Below, piece after piece: positions 40,945-47,225 of a stretch of DNA of 64,000 bases. The translations under genes were made by a program, and so were the position numbers. The notes below the pieces were generated by a model. The model was not told where the DNA came from. It ran no database searches and was given only the letters and a program-made list of their open reading frames with translations. Each line of letters starts with the position of its first letter. Position 1 is the stretch's first letter. This stretch comes from Erythrobacter sp. (GTDB lineage: Bacteria > Pseudomonadota > Alphaproteobacteria > Sphingomonadales > Sphingomonadaceae). Location of the stretch: NCBI GenBank assembly GCA_009993605.1, contig JAACTB010000013.1, positions 1 to 64,000 on the forward strand, given 5' to 3'.

Positions 40945-42210
40945 ATGAACGACCAGACTTTCGACCCGCAGATCCACGTCCACGAACTCGGCCGCAAGGC
41001 GCGCGCCGCCGCCAAGGGCCTGCTCGCCGCCTCTACCGAGGCGAAAAACACCGCTCTGCGTGAGGCGGCCAAGGCCTTGCGCGGCGCGACCGACGATCTG
41101 ATCGCCGCGAACGACAAGGATGTCGAAAGCGTCGCCGGCAAGAAGCCCGACAGCTTCGTTGATCGTCTTCGCCTGAACGAAGAACGTATCGAAGGCATGG
41201 CCAGCGCGCTCGAACAGATCGCGGAGCTGCCCGACCCGGTCAATCGCAAGCTCGCGACGGTCGATCGTCCCAACGGCCTCAAGATCGAGCGCGTCGCGGT
41301 TCCCATCGGCGTAATCGGCATGATCTACGAATCGCGCCCCAATGTCGGCGCGGATGCCAGCGCGCTCTGCCTCAAGAGCGGCAATGCGGTGATCCTTCGC
41401 GGCGGGAGCGAAAGCCGCCATTCGACCAAGGTCATCGTGAATTGCATGCGCCAGGGTCTGGCCGCAGCGGGCCTTCCCGAAGACGCTGTCCAGACGGTCG
41501 GCACGACCGACCGCGCCGCCGTCGCTGCGCTGCTCAAGGCGGATGAGTTCGTCGATCTCGTGATCCCGCGCGGCGGGCGTGGCCTCGTCGAACTGGTGCG
41601 CGACCAGGCGAGCGTCCCCACCCTCCTCCACCTCGACGGCAATTGCCACAGCTACGTCCACGAGGCCGCCGATCTCGACAAGGCGGCCGAGGTCATCCGC
41701 AACGCCAAGCTGCGCCGCACCGGCGTGTGCGGAGCGACCGAGAGCATCGTGGTCGATCGTGCGGTGGCGAAGGACTTCGTGCCCCGCCTCACCGCTATCA
41801 TGGGCTCCGATTGCGAGCTGCGCGGTGACCAGGAAGCGGTCGCGATCGATAGCTCGATCAAGCCTGCCGAAGACGCGGACTGGAACACCGAATATCTCGA
41901 CACCATCGCGAGCGTGAAGATAGTCGACGGCCTCGACGAAGCGATCGCCTGGGTGGACGAGCATTCCAGCCACCATACCGACGCGATCATGACCGAGGAC
42001 GATGACGCCGCCCGCCGCTTCATGACCGCCATCGACAGCGCGATCGTGATGCGCAACGCCAGCACCCAGTTCGCCGATGGCGGCGAATTCGGCATGGGCG
42101 CGGAAATCGGCATCGCCACCGGCAAGATGCACGCGCGTGGCCCGGTCGGGCTCGAACAGCTGTGCAGCTTCAAATACCTCGTCCACGGCGACGGTCAGAC
42201 CAGACCCTAA
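40945..42210 (+). CDS. proA: Glutamate-5-semialdehyde dehydrogenase ProA
   Basis: A 421-residue gamma-glutamyl phosphate reductase, second step of proline synthesis. [24 protein letters not shown] and [12 protein letters not shown] are family motifs. The catalytic Cys lies in [13 protein letters not shown], with the cofactor region [16 protein letters not shown] upstream. The length is normal. It lies 62 bp after proC and is probably co-transcribed. All three proline genes are therefore present here. Confidence 0.96.
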
Positions 42211-42297: not shown

Positions 42298-43098
42298 ATG
42301 ACCCGCCGCAAGGACCCCACCGAAATCCGCATCCCCGTCGCGCCGGAGAACCTTCCCGCGTTCGAACCCGTGCCGCGCAAACCCCGCCACGATGGCTGGA
42401 CGCCCGAGCGCCAGCGCGCCTTCATCGGAGCGCTGGCCGATACCGGCAGCGTCAGCCGCGCCGCGCGTTACGTCAATATGAGTCCCGAAGGCGCCTATTA
42501 TCTGCGCCGCCAGCCCGGCTCGGAAGGGTTTCGCCGCGCGTGGGAGGCCGCGCTCGACCTCGGCGTGCAGCGGCTGAAGGACGTGGCGTATGAGCGCGCG
42601 ATCGACGGCCAGCTCGTCCCCGTCTTCGTCGCGGGCAAGCTCAAGGGGTTTCGCCGCGTGCGCAACGACCGGCTGCTGATGTTCTGCCTCAGGATGAATA
42701 TGCGCGGGGAGGACGGCAAGCGCCTCGCCGCCAGCTATTTCGACCCGAACGCGGCGAGACTGTCGGGCAGCGCCATCCCCGCAAGCATCACCACCCCCGC
42801 CCTCTCCCGCGCGGAGAAGGACGACATGAACGCCGCGATCGTGGAGCAGTTCGACCCCGTTGACATGACCCTGTCCGAAATCGAGGCGATGCAGACGATG
42901 CTCGCCGAGACCGCCCGCCGCAAACGCGCCGAGGAAGACGGCCCGCCCGACCACGACACCGACCCCGCCTTCGTCCAGCTCACCAGCAGCGACTGGAAGG
43001 AAGCGGGCACCCTCGAAGGGCTGGAACAGGTGGAAGACGAACTCGAACAGTGGAACGAGGACGAGGATCACTGGAGGGATTTGGGCGAAGGCGACTAG
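42298..43098 (+). CDS. Hypothetical protein with N-terminal helix-turn-helix-like segment
   Basis: A 266-residue soluble protein. Residues about 35-90 (PERQRAFIGALADTGSVSRA, then YVNMSPEGAYYLRR) resemble an HTH as in phage-terminase-like or resolvase HTH domains common in sphingomonad hypothetical proteins. The C-terminal third is strongly acidic. The start ATG 42298 is supported by AGGAGAG 7 nt upstream, within the arm of a strong hairpin. The stop lies inside the first copy of the inverted repeat bounding the accessory island. DNA binding is plausible but unproven. Confidence 0.7.
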   Translation: MTRRKDPTEIRIPVAPENLPAFEPVPRKPRHDGWTPERQRAFIGALADTGSVSRAARYVNMSPEGAYYLRRQPGSEGFRRAWEAALDLGVQRLKDVAYERAIDGQLVPVFVAGKLKGFRRVRNDRLLMFCLRMNMRGEDGKRLAASYFDPNAARLSGSAIPASITTPALSRAEKDDMNAAIVEQFDPVDMTLSEIEAMQTMLAETARRKRAEEDGPPDHDTDPAFVQLTSSDWKEAGTLEGLEQVEDELEQWNEDEDHWRDLGEGD

Positions 43099-43252
43099 CG
43101 CCAGAGCTTGCCAAGCAAGCGACAAGCTGGGAGCCGGTGCGCGCCAGCGCATCGCCCAGCCCGGCCGACGGGTCCGCGCAAAACGCGCGGACCCCGTTCG
43201 ACGTCACGCGACGCATGGAGCGATTGCGCCAGCAACCGCGGAACGGCGCGTG
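43086..43252 (+). repeat. Inverted repeat, left copy
   Basis: This sequence matches the reverse complement of 45224-45386 over its whole length at about 80%, starting with GCGAAGGCG and ending GGAACGGCGCGTG. It includes the last codons and stop of the 42298 gene. It holds a perfect 10-bp hairpin, GGGTCCGCGC / GCGCGGACCC (43170-43194), that could terminate transcription. Confidence 0.8.
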
Positions 43253-43264
43253 ACGGCGTAGGCG

Positions 43265-44161
43265 CTATCCTGCGAAGGCGTGGTGCTCCCGATGCCAGGC
43301 GAGAAATTGCGGGTGCGGCCTGTCGCTCTCACGCATCGGCGGAATAAGCTTCCCCGATGGATTGATTATCGCCTCGACACCCTCGCGGTCATTGACCTTG
43401 CGGTGCACGATGATTGCGAGATCGTCCCTGAATCCAATCAGTCCGCGGTCAAACATCCAATGCGCGGTGCCGGAAAGCGCAAGGCCATTGCGCACGCTGT
43501 CAGGCCCGCCATGCTCGACCGGTCGGATATGCGCGGCCTGCGCTTCCAAACGGCCACCGCCATTGACGAGCTTCCAGCCTGTCACCGCACAGCGACCATC
43601 ATAGGCGTGCATCACGGCGCGCCGGAAAGCCCGGTCGCGGAATGGCTTGGAGACAAGTGACTGGACGATGGGCCGCTCGATCTCGAACGGTGTCTGATGC
43701 TCACGGACGCGGTTGTCATCGACCACTTCGTCATCGCTGCGCGGTAGGAAGTTCTCATCCGGTAGGCCGAGGGAGATAATTCGGGCGAAGTCGGCAGACG
43801 ATAATGGGCGGACGGCGGCTTGGGCCCGACCCGAAACTTTGCCTTCCTCATTGAGGACGCCGCGCTCAACCTGCTCGCCATTGACTATATGCGGCACAGT
43901 CGGCTCGAAAGGCAGATAGCTTCCTTCCTGGATGATCGCACGATAGCGGTCAGGTTCGGTCGGGTCACAAATGATTCCCTCGACCTTTGCCACCGCGAAG
44001 AAGCCCTTGGAGTTCCTAATTTTGACCGGCTCGCGATAGACAATCCAATCGCCGACCATCTGCTGTGCGCGGTTCAGATAGCTTTTCGGAAACTGGTAAT
44101 GCATCTCAGGAATGTCGTCGTAGATCGACCCGTCTTTGTGCATGAAAACGCCGAAGGTCAT
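43265..44161 (-). CDS. HNH endonuclease with EVE/PUA-like N-terminal domain
   Basis: A 298-residue predicted nuclease. The C-terminal HNH (beta-beta-alpha metal) domain shows C191AVTG, H211 in AAHIRPVEHGG, N225 in VRNGLALS and H234 in GTAHWMFDRG, all intact. This is the COG3440-like restriction-endonuclease group. The N-terminal part (about 1-95: MVGDWIVYREP, KGFFAVAKVEGI, then DRYRAIIQEGSYLPF) resembles an EVE/PUA-type fold, as in nucleases that cut modified DNA. That assignment is inferred by pattern only. The gene starts the minus arm of the island and has lower GC than core genes. No methyltransferase is adjacent, consistent with a type IV-like enzyme. Confidence 0.85.
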   Translation of the reverse strand: MTFGVFMHKDGSIYDDIPEMHYQFPKSYLNRAQQMVGDWIVYREPVKIRNSKGFFAVAKVEGIICDPTEPDRYRAIIQEGSYLPFEPTVPHIVNGEQVERGVLNEEGKVSGRAQAAVRPLSSADFARIISLGLPDENFLPRSDDEVVDDNRVREHQTPFEIERPIVQSLVSKPFRDRAFRRAVMHAYDGRCAVTGWKLVNGGGRLEAQAAHIRPVEHGGPDSVRNGLALSGTAHWMFDRGLIGFRDDLAIIVHRKVNDREGVEAIINPSGKLIPPMRESDRPHPQFLAWHREHHAFAG

Positions 44162-44225
44162 TCTGTAGATCCCATAGATAATCTAGAACTTGATCGCATC
44201 AACTGGCGAGCACAAGGTCCATGTT

Positions 44226-44465
44226 ATGTCTGATGCACTGGAAAACGCGCGCAAATCCCTAGAAAACCTTCAACGGTTCGAGCTATCTACACTGTTAAGT
44301 GCATGCTCGGTCGGTATTGCCAGCGTGCCCGACGACGAACTTTGGATTGAATTGGAAAGCGAAAAGGCGATCGTATCAGCACCTTCGCCGATCGCTGAAG
44401 CACTAAGAACGCTGCCACCTTACGATCGCAAACGCATTGGGGAAGCGATCGCAAAGGGGGTATAA
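44226..44465 (+). CDS. Island gene, N-terminal fragment before +1 shift
   Basis: A 79-residue frame starting MSDALENARKSLENLQRFEL at ATG 44226, preceded by AAGG at about 9 nt. It ends ...RKRIGEAIAKGV then TAA at 44463-44465. Immediately before the stop is AAAGGGGG (G5 at 44456-44460). Omitting one G joins it to the frame ending at 45216: KRIGEAIAKG-YNRAGAFDDI. The joined product would be 329 residues. It is divergent from the HNH gene across 64 bp. The family is not recognised. The break could be a mutation, a homopolymer sequencing error or a programmed shift. Confidence 0.6.
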   Translation: MSDALENARKSLENLQRFELSTLLSACSVGIASVPDDELWIELESEKAIVSAPSPIAEALRTLPPYDRKRIGEAIAKGV

Positions 44466-45216
44466 TCGCGCAGGGGCATTCGACGACATTCAAGTCAACG
44501 ACGTTTTGCACAACGTCGAAGGCTCGGTTGGACTTTTGGCAGACTTGCTAATTCACCGCGCGATGATGGTGTCCGTAGCGACGGGCGGCGACCTCATACA
44601 ACAAGTCAACGATTACTACCGGGCGCGTGAAGCCCACATTCTCGAGCGCATGCCGCCGGACGTTCATTACGAAAATCCCCACGAAGATTTGTGGGCCTGG
44701 TATCATTATTGGAAAGAAAATTTTGGGACGTGGGCCGAGCGTCGCCAATACGCTAACAAACTTTTTGGCCCCGCGATTGAAGCCTTGGCAAAACGGTCTT
44801 CGGTCCCGATGCCCGAACGGGAAGCCTCAGGATGGGAACGCGTTGATCGGGCTCTCTCGAAAGCGCGGGCACAACTCGGCTTAGCTTCAGCCGAAGAAGA
44901 CTTTCAACAGATCGGCCTTTTGTGCAGAGAAGTGCTTATATCGCTAGGACAAGCGGTCTATGACCCACTTCTCCATTCATCACCGGATGGCGTCGAACCG
45001 AGCGAAACTGACGCTAATCGGATGATTGCCTCCTTCATCGCATTTGCTTTTGGCGGTTCCAGCAATGAAGAAGTTCGCGCCCATGCGAAAGCATCGCTTC
45101 GGCTGGCGCTCGCGCTGCAGCATAGACGCACCGCAAGCGGCAAACTTGCCGCTCTTTGCCTCGAAGCAACTTCATCTACTGTTGCCGTTATCTCAATTAT
45201 TGCTCGACCAGCATAG
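44437..45216 (+). CDS. Island gene, C-terminal fragment after +1 shift
   Basis: The open frame to 45216 (up to 259 residues) has only a TTG at 44437 inside the preceding frame and no convincing ribosome site, so it is most likely the continuation of the 44226 gene. It is helical, with DDIQVNDVLHNVEGSVGLLA, a Trp/Tyr-rich segment (EDLWAWYHYWKENFGTWAER) and a C-terminal region IGLLCREVLISLGQAVYDP ... AKASLRLALALQHRR. The last part faintly recalls DUF4145/HEPN-like C-terminal helices of abortive-infection proteins, which is speculation. It ends 8 bp before the right inverted repeat. Confidence 0.6.
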   Translation: MGKRSQRGYNRAGAFDDIQVNDVLHNVEGSVGLLADLLIHRAMMVSVATGGDLIQQVNDYYRAREAHILERMPPDVHYENPHEDLWAWYHYWKENFGTWAERRQYANKLFGPAIEALAKRSSVPMPEREASGWERVDRALSKARAQLGLASAEEDFQQIGLLCREVLISLGQAVYDPLLHSSPDGVEPSETDANRMIASFIAFAFGGSSNEEVRAHAKASLRLALALQHRRTASGKLAALCLEATSSTVAVISIIARPA

Positions 45217-45223
45217 TCACAGC

Positions 45224-45386
45224 CACGCGCCGTTCCGCGTTTGCTGGCGCAAACGCTCCATGCGTCACGTGACGTCAAACGGGTTCCGCTGCGCAAACCC
45301 GCTGGCCGAGGCTCGCGATGCGCTGACGCGCACCGGCTTCTAACTTGTCGCTTGGCTAGCCAAGCTCCGGCGTTAGGCGCCTTCGC
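45224..45386 (-). repeat. Inverted repeat, right copy
   Basis: Reverse-complement partner of 43086-43252. It lies between the end of the island gene and the stop of lepA (45390). The 10-bp hairpin of the left copy is degenerate here. A perfect 16-bp palindrome, GCTTGGCTAGCCAAGC (45350-45365), is found instead near the outer end. Confidence 0.8.
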
Positions 45387-45389
45387 TCG

Positions 45390-47225
45390 CTATTCCTCCC
45401 CCATACGGAGCGCAGCGATGAAAGCTTCCTGAGGGATCGAGACGTTGCCGTACTCTCTCATCCGCGCCTTGCCCTTCTTCTGCTTTTCCAGCAGCTTCTT
45501 CTTGCGGCTGATGTCGCCGCCGTAGCATTTGGCGGTCACGTCCTTGCGCAGGGCGGCGATGGTTTCGCGGGCGATCACCTTGCCGCCGATCGCGGCCTGG
45601 ATCGGGATTTTGAACAGGTGGCGCGGGATGAGGTCCTTCAGGCGCTCGCACATGCCGCGCCCGCGTTCTTCCGCCACGTTGCGGTGAACGATCAGGGAGA
45701 GGGCGTCGACCGGCTCGTTGTTGACGAGGATGTTCATCTTCACGAGGTCGCCTTCGCGTAGGCCGATCTGTTCGTAATCGAAGCTGGCATAGCCGCGGCT
45801 GATCGATTTCAACCGGTCGTAGAAATCGAACACCACCTCGTTCAGCGGCAATTCGTACGTCACCTGCGCGCGCCCGCCGACATAGGTCAGATTGGTCTGG
45901 ATACCGCGCCGGTCCTGGCAGAGCTTCAGGATGGGGCCGAGATACTCGTCGGGCGTGTAGATCACCGCCTTGATCCACGGCTCCTCGATCATGTCGATGC
46001 GGCTGGGATCGGGATAGTCGGCCGGGTTGTGCAGCTCGATCACCTTCGCATCCTCGTTCTTCGTATGGCCGAGATGGATGCGATAGACGACCGAGGGCGC
46101 CGTGGTGATGAGGTCGAGATCGTATTCGCGGCTGAGGCGCTCCTGAATGATCTCGAGGTGCAGGAGGCCGAGGAAGCCCGCGCGGAAGCCGAAGCCCAGC
46201 GCGGCGGAGCTTTCCATCTCGTAGGTGAAGCTCGCATCGTTCAGGCGCAATTTGCCGATGCTGTCGCGCAGCTTCTCGAAATCGGCGGCGTCGACGGGGA
46301 AGAGCCCGCAAAAGACCACCGGCTGTGGCTCGCGATAGCCGGGCAGCGCCTCGCTCGCCCCGCCCTTCACGGTGGTGATGGTGTCGCCGACGCGGGCCTG
46401 CTCCACCTCCTTGATCTGGGCGGTGATAAAGCCGATCTCGCCCGGCCCGATCTCGTCGAGGTCGGTGCGCTTGGGGCGGAAACAGCCAACCCGATCGACC
46501 AGATGCTGGGTGCCGCCCTGCATGAAGCGGACGTTGAGGCCCTTGTGCAGGAAGCCGTCGATCACGCGCACGAGGATGACGACGCCGAGATAGGGGTCGT
46601 ACCAGCTGTCGACGAGGCTGGCTTTGAGGGGCGCGGTGCGGTCGCCCGTGGGCGGGGGGATGCGCTTGACCAGCGCTTCCAGCACGTCCTCGATCCCGAT
46701 GCCGGATTTGGCGCTGGAGAGGACGGCGCCGCCTTCCTCCCACGGGCCGGTGGCCTGGATGCCGACGATCTCCTCGATCTCTTCGGCGACCTTTTCGGGT
46801 TCGGCGGCGGGCAGGTCGATCTTGTTGATGACGGGGACGATCTCGTGGTCGTGCTCGATCGACTGGTAGACATTGGCGAGCGTCTGCGCCTCTACCCCCT
46901 GCGCCGCGTCCACCACCAACAGCGCACCCTCGCACGCGGCGAGGGAGCGGCTGACTTCGTAGGCGAAGTCGACATGGCCGGGCGTGTCCATGAGGTTGAG
47001 CTCGTAGGTCTCGCCATCCTTCGCGGTGTAGGACAGGCGCACGGTCTGCGCCTTGATGGTGATCCCGCGCTCCTTTTCGATGTCCATGTTGTCGAGCACC
47101 TGCTCGGACATCTCGCGGTCGGTCAGCCCGCCGCAGTGCTGGATCAGCCGATCAGCAAGCGTGGACTTGCCATGGTCGATGTGGGCAATGATGCTGAAAT
47201 TGCGGATCTTGGAAAGGTCGGTCAT
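45390..47225 (-). CDS. lepA: Elongation factor 4 (LepA)
   Basis: A 611-residue ribosome-associated GTPase implicated in back-translocation and initiation. The N-terminus [20 protein letters not shown] holds the G1 motif. DTPGHVDF is G3 and NKIDLPAA is G4. The C-terminal LepA-specific domain includes [20 protein letters not shown] near 575-594. The length is typical. The stop is only a few bases outside the right inverted repeat of the accessory island, so the island inserted without damaging it. Confidence 0.97.

Follow-up and report, generated by a model that had tools for sequence, protein, structure and literature searches.

The window analyzed here is a stretch of 64,000 nucleotides from an Erythrobacter sp. 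genome (contig JAACTB010000013.1, positions 1 to 64,000; the 2.99-Mb genome is designated G000), and our subject is a small island lying in it between a helix-turn-helix (HTH) gene and lepA. On the plus strand, the core gene proA (40945..42210), assigned from the list of open reading frames (ORFs) and from its orthologs in genus genomes, is followed by the HTH gene (42298..43098), whose 266-aa product resembles a phage small terminase subunit (terS). The left border element, or left inverted repeat (IRL; 43085..43252, plus strand), overlaps the last codons and the stop codon of the HTH gene and reads away from that stop. Between the borders lie an HNH nuclease gene (43265..44161, minus strand; 298 aa, with an HNH_2 domain at the C-terminus) and two plus-strand ORFs, ORFA (44226..44465; 79 aa) and ORFB (44437..45216; 259 aa), in different frames. 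The right border element (IRR; 45224..45386, minus strand) begins beside the stop codon of lepA (45390..47225, minus strand), a core gene, and reads away from it. The open frames of lepA and of the HTH gene are both complete in the window, as an initial annotation made from the letters alone had stated, and its remark that no recombinase gene lies between the repeats agrees with the ORF list and with a Pfam scan of the window cassette. Among the HTH–lepA ORFs of the window, to which the search for intI was confined, there is no integrase, and the flanks of the window enclose no tRNA or tmRNA gene.

The two inverted copies of about 165 bp described in the initial annotation are real: a whole-genome search aligned IRL and IRR in inverted orientation at 84% identity over query positions 5–172 (E = 1.8e-43), far beyond chance, the matching arms being 66, 65, and 32 nt long and 92, 80, and 84% identical, respectively. 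Two divergent genes had been proposed, each ending at a repeat. The HNH gene does stop 12 bp short of the left repeat's inner end, and ORFB stops 7 bp before the right repeat, but the second gene is split into ORFA and ORFB. Likewise, the island is low in guanine plus cytosine (GC) only in part: the main low-GC stretch, at about 43.75–45.2 kb, has a GC content of 0.50–0.55, whereas most of the HNH gene, at 0.61–0.62, is near its surroundings.

Of the 60 genus genomes, 57 yielded a lepA ortholog (E ≤ 1e-150), and 56 loci were examined: that of the window and 55 from other genus genomes, G039 being excluded because a contig end cuts its lepA. An HTH gene stands opposite lepA in 45 loci, and all 45 intervals are filled, over 1855–6124 bp (median 3146 bp; at most 4.6 kb in 44 of the 45). 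This cargo has a median GC content of 0.52 and the 3′ end of lepA one of 0.62; the cargo value is the lower of the two in 44 of 45 loci. Six loci have proA on the far side of the slot and no HTH gene; five of these intervals measure 61, 550, 708, 1453, and 2084 bp, and the sixth (G028) spans 8.9 kb and includes an HNH gene. Five loci offered no anchor, three being on short contigs (G020, G036, and G038) and two having neither an HTH gene nor proA nearby (G029 and G040).

In the intervals of 47 genomes, 128 ORFs are 120 aa or longer, and BLAST marks 71 of these as singletons; the set (A1) has none from G000, G028, or G029 and does contain four that come from loci without an HTH gene (G050, G058, and G059). 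The ORFs were scanned with PADLOC, Pfam, and NCBIfam, and the 25 commonest families per scan were tallied (for Pfam, 25 of 70). They include 14 HNH proteins, five cytosine C5 methylases, five D12 methylases, four Vsr and four Eco57I proteins, three St85-type retron reverse transcriptases, three anti-phage dGTPases, and two SIR2 proteins. Of the 70 Pfam families matched, the 25 listed include a single mobile-element type, an IS1595 transposase, matched by two of the 128 ORFs. Judged by the families listed rather than against a background rate, the cargo is rich in defense genes.

Inverted repeat pairs were found at seven loci, five of them HTH loci of the genus, and each pair encloses different cargo: the HNH gene and the broken gene in G000, an EcoRI-type methylase with a type II restriction enzyme in G013, a type ISP/IIG enzyme in G015, a TPR-S/effector-like protein in G034, an aspartyl-protease-like protein without a PADLOC match in G054, and, in other genera, a cyclase and Cap15 of a cyclic-oligonucleotide-based antiphage signaling system (CBASS) in G241 and beta/cll/capP-like proteins in G106. 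A check of relatives for copies around other cargo, as the initial annotation had advised, thus turned up six further bracketed loci. Its view of the island as a small defense-type cassette is also strengthened, since the slot holds other, mostly defense-like cargo in relatives. The flanks are conserved and the cargo varies between them, as in a core hotspot. We consider it probable, at roughly 0.78, that the HTH–lepA interval is a family-wide core defense hotspot of which the island in the window is one occupant.

Several lines of evidence bear on how the cargo changes. Comparison of the HTH gene–lepA junction among near relatives, another check that had been suggested, found that they do differ: three genomes with lepA genes 99–100% identical are in three states, G000 carrying the HNH gene and the broken gene, G034 the TPR-S/effector-like gene, and G021 neither cargo nor HTH gene, with a proA–lepA gap of 61 bp. 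Five genus genomes (G001, G005, G020, G038, and G048) have a partial second lepA 3′ end beside the intact gene, on its downstream side. In all but G048, this fragment is closer to the lepA of another species than to the resident gene (95.7 vs. 89.4% in G005, 90.3 vs. 84.9% in G020, 86.7 vs. 78.0% in G001, and 95.0 vs. 83.6% in G038). Across the 16 genomes with a full-length HNH gene at the slot, HNH identity is correlated neither with that of lepA (rho = −0.01, P = 0.48) nor with that of proA (rho = 0.10, P = 0.26), and in 83 of 120 genome pairs it is higher than the identity of proA. Foreign lepA ends, an HNH gene that does not track core genes, and differing near relatives are what import by recombination in shared flanks would produce. 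We propose that cargo is swapped between species by homologous recombination in lepA, in the HTH gene, and, where present, in the borders, donor DNA being brought in beforehand by uptake or transduction. Recombination in conserved flanks would require no dedicated recombinase. A gene transfer agent (GTA), suggested as a vehicle by the cargo size of about 3 kb, was rejected, as the GTA_TIM marker (PF13547) was detected in none of the 60 genus genomes, a Caulobacter control being positive. Fragments of lepA are likewise present in two genomes of other genera, G085 (L156) and G330 (L165).

The HNH protein of the window matches Pfam HNH_2 at its C-terminus (1.4e-10), PDB entry 6ghs over residues 158–251 (E = 3.1e-6), and NCBIfam NF045808 over residues 171–292 only, at 94.9 bits against a cut-off of 180. 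H211, N225, and H234, which we read as the HNH triad of the motif, are conserved in all four aligned homologs. This nuclease domain is of the kind found in modification-dependent restriction enzymes, and from it we judge a modification-dependent (type IV-like) enzyme the likeliest identity of the protein. In TagI and other SRA-HNH and SBD-HNH modification-dependent endonucleases, an HNH domain of this kind likewise forms the C-terminus and is preceded by an N-terminal part about as long; unlike them, the window protein has an N-terminus to which none of their reader domains could be matched, residues 1–170 giving no SRA, SBD, or EVE match, nor any other, in Pfam, NCBIfam, and PDB sequence searches. 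This N-terminal half (43712–44161, minus strand) is well conserved and could possibly be a new modification-reader domain. The full-length HNH gene has the same orientation in all 16 genomes, and inversion of the cargo between the repeats was rejected on that ground.

The partner was introduced in the initial annotation as one gene of unknown function forming a two-gene system with the nuclease, and neither statement is supported. ORFA is 53% identical to residues 1–83 and ORFB 70% identical to residues 83–334 of one 335-aa homolog. As they match consecutive parts of one protein, the partner appears from the alignments to be a single gene of about 335 codons whose reading frame has been broken in this genome, barring an assembly error at this point. 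None of the 15 other genus genomes with a full-length HNH gene at the slot carries ORFB. Intact homologs of the partner occur in four other family genomes and in Pseudorhizobium, with relatives also on Rhizobium plasmids and one viral contig, and four intact relatives match no Pfam family at the cut-off. By eye, intact relatives adjoin relaxase/TraG-type genes (G328, L096) or an N6-methylase-like gene (G205, L095). Predicted structures were not used, the pLDDT (predicted local distance difference test) being 40 for the HNH protein and 60 for the partner.

Some observations weigh against the picture of an exchanged defense cassette. The near host-like GC content of the HNH gene fits long residence, the lepA fragments of G048, compared from end to end, are nearest to the lepA of that genome, and no transfer event was observed. 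Rare integrases may be present among the Pfam families beyond the 25 of 70 listed, next to the two IS1595 matches. The N-terminal half of the HNH protein, with its low-scoring model, gave no significant fold match either, so that the type IV reading is carried by the HNH half of the protein.

The initial annotation had the cassette entering by recombination between dispersed repeats, which the distribution of the border element does not support. There is no full copy in the 2.99-Mb genome beyond the two at the locus; the sole extra match at E ≤ 0.001 covers 45 bp at 80% identity within long open frames. A covariance model of the element, searched against the 60 genus genomes and 298 family genomes, gave matches in 17 and 41 of them, respectively. 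All 24 matches of at least 80 bits, 14 in the genus and ten in eight other genera, sit between the HTH gene and lepA, and no copy of that strength lies outside this interval in either genome set. The case that would refute the initial annotation, repeats present only as lepA-linked sequence, is partly what is seen: they are confined to the HTH–lepA locus, but they bracket changing cargo. A transposon with terminal inverted repeats was rejected, the two full copies being at one locus with no strong copies elsewhere. Repetitive extragenic palindromic (REP) sequences and bacterial interspersed mosaic elements (BIMEs) are palindromic hairpin units at gene 3′ ends. The border element shares with them hairpin units at this position but is not dispersed in the genus; with two copies at one locus of this genome, it lacks the many dispersed copies of a REP or BIME. 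Weaker covariance matches of up to 56 bits occur elsewhere and recur in some other genera, with seven in G329 and five in G254. These recurrent matches (<60 bits, up to seven per genome) possibly represent a distant dispersed family of related hairpins.

Within the interval, the species that have the element carry it at the 3′ end of one flanking gene (lepA or the HTH gene) or, in inverted orientation, of both, and it is also present in two genomes in which the HTH gene was not found (G002 and G028). At least one copy is detectable in 13 of the 45 HTH loci, with a pair in five of these. The borders could be recombination sites or transposon ends delimiting a mobile cassette for which the recombinase is supplied from elsewhere. 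The inverted pairs around different cargo at seven loci speak for such a role, but 32 of the 45 HTH loci carry cargo with no detectable element, and the absence of strong copies elsewhere and of a recombinase gene from the window cassette, together with the constant orientation of the HNH gene, point the other way. Moreover, copies are cut short on the cargo side in seven cases and on the gene side in three, and such ragged cargo-side ends argue against precise recombination at that end. In a tree of 28 copies, the left and right copies of one genome are never sisters, and concerted evolution of the two repeats was rejected on this basis; one subtype mixes left and right copies with a support of 100, several other nodes being weak.

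The genus alignment of the element comprised 14 of the 17 copies extracted, G033_L, G041_L, and G054_R being excluded as short or diverged. Among its 38 consensus pairs, 14 are changed on both sides, against 5.2 in shuffled controls, of which none of 500 reached 14. Ten copies from other genera, aligned separately without the model, gave 48 pairs, 19 of them changed on both sides (no shuffle control was made for this set). The predicted structure of the border element is supported by these compensatory changes, and again by those in the ten independent copies. Folding into a hairpin would suit a recombination site as well, and pairs predicted on both strands show no G-U excess (G-U vs. A-C, 2 vs. 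5 and 7 vs. 4), which leaves an RNA role without independent support and a structure in DNA possible. Even so, we regard the borders as unlikely to be recombination sites. Integron attC sites have an invariant AAC/GTT in their core boxes. This identity was rejected for the border element, in which the second A of CTAAC pairs A-U in six and G-C in six of the 14 copies (columns 21/51).

Alternatively, the borders may belong to lepA and the HTH gene as 3′ untranslated region or terminator structures, independent of cargo exchange. Twenty-two of the 24 strong copies abut a stop codon, the exceptions being in G007 (454 bp from lepA) and G267 (about 140 bp), and all the stop-abutting ones read in the sense of the adjoining gene, away from it. 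The right copy lies at the end of lepA whether the neighboring cargo gene is convergent (G000, G013, and G015) or in tandem (G010, G034, G042, G046, and G054), and folding of the consensus is more favorable for the sense strand (−34.65 vs. −27.18 and −45.13 vs. −32.75 kcal/mol). However, a general terminator would be expected at other genes, where no strong copy was found. Neither repeat contained a called terminator-like site, Rfam gave no match to the repeat, and the shared pairs have no G-U excess. In addition, single-strand DNA folding of IRR is not clearly more stable than that of shuffled sequences (z = 0.42 for the first 137 nt and −1.37 for the inner 60 nt). We nevertheless lean toward a terminator or boundary function, to which we give a little under even odds, ahead of a recombination site and, last, of a binding site for the terS-like protein. 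Most likely, in our judgment, the borders are gene-end structures, either terminators or boundary DNA, that outlast cargo turnover, rather than sites for a recombinase.

The HTH protein matches the terminase small subunit family phrog_4044 (E = 6.1e-14) and is 35% identical over 98 aa (E = 1e-4) to the annotated terminase small subunit of Rhodobacter phage RcSimone-Hastad, so by similarity it would be a small terminase; no relatives were found in viral_contigs. Sixty regions around paralogs were chosen by hand down the match list rather than at random. GC content fell below 0.57 in the 2 kb upstream of 32 of the 60 paralogs and in the 2 kb downstream of none, compared with 1.1% of 940 distal windows of those regions. 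Thirty-six of the regions are at one site, recognized by eye, upstream of rpsL and rpsG. In 31 of these 36 sites there are low-GC ORFs, 49 in all, assigned by PADLOC and Pfam to AriA, PifA, KAP NTPase, TIR, and others. At the G000 site (G000:C1:647500-663800), one ORF encodes an AriA-like ATPase (E = 1.6e-25), and we read a second one as its apparent partner. The terS-like paralog marks a second small, low-GC defense hotspot upstream of rpsL–rpsG.

The terS-like protein might bind the border element and help in phage-assisted packaging of the cassette, which would make the latter a minimal satellite-like unit. An orphan terS-like gene at the slot, a paralog at the second hotspot, and the filling of all 45 HTH loci, compared with five short HTH-less intervals (61–2084 bp; G028 being the exception), are in line with this, as is cargo as small as that of P2 and P4 phage hotspots (averages of 3.2 and 2.6 kb in the accessible part of PMC9122126). 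On the other hand, none of the 36 rpsL–rpsG sites has an inverted repeat pair, G002 and G028 have the element although no HTH gene was recovered from them, the gene family is multicopy with 28 of 60 paralogs lacking a low-GC neighbor, and the GTA marker is missing from all 60 genomes. We judge this binding role improbable, the least probable of the three considered for the borders. Only slightly less doubtful is the broader proposal that orphan terS-like genes mark slots, at least those at lepA and at rpsL–rpsG, cap their cargo at about 2–4 kb, and act with the inverted element at lepA, phage packaging moving defense sets between species.

The closest known kind to the lepA slot is the core defense hotspot, represented in the accessible part of PMC10250203 by cDHS1 and cDHS2. 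As there, the core flanks are conserved, many defense systems occupy one site, and, by the Pfam families listed, no single type of mobile element appears to be involved, homologous recombination in the flanks having been proposed for those sites too. In contrast to cDHS1 of Pseudomonas aeruginosa, which reaches 224 kb with a median of 26 kb (PMC10250203, accessible part), the lepA slot holds cargo within a narrow range (median 3.1 kb, maximum 6.1 kb). It also differs from both sites in having a terS-like orphan as its left flank and structured inverted borders, and no tRNA or tmRNA in the window; the accessible text of PMC10250203 contains neither "inverted repeat" nor "attachment". The hotspots of P2 and P4 phages and satellites (PMC9122126, as far as accessible) resemble the slot in that each site holds one small, swappable defense set. 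They lie within phages or satellites, whereas the lepA slot is chromosomal, with the terS-like gene as its sole phage-like trait. In the literature searched, whose coverage was partial, we found no earlier report of a lepA- or terS-linked defense hotspot in this group. We therefore regard the island of the window as a defense cassette in a seemingly unreported core hotspot with unusual borders.

These findings suggest a one-locus rule for small defense systems across the family: they would be sought upstream of rpsL and in the interval that separates lepA from the terS-like gene. Most of the ORFs in the lepA interval are unshared between species. To what is known of such sites, the lepA slot adds a structured element bound to one locus. 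As cargo swaps leave readable scars in the form of foreign lepA ends, the movement of defense genes without a recombinase would become testable in this family.

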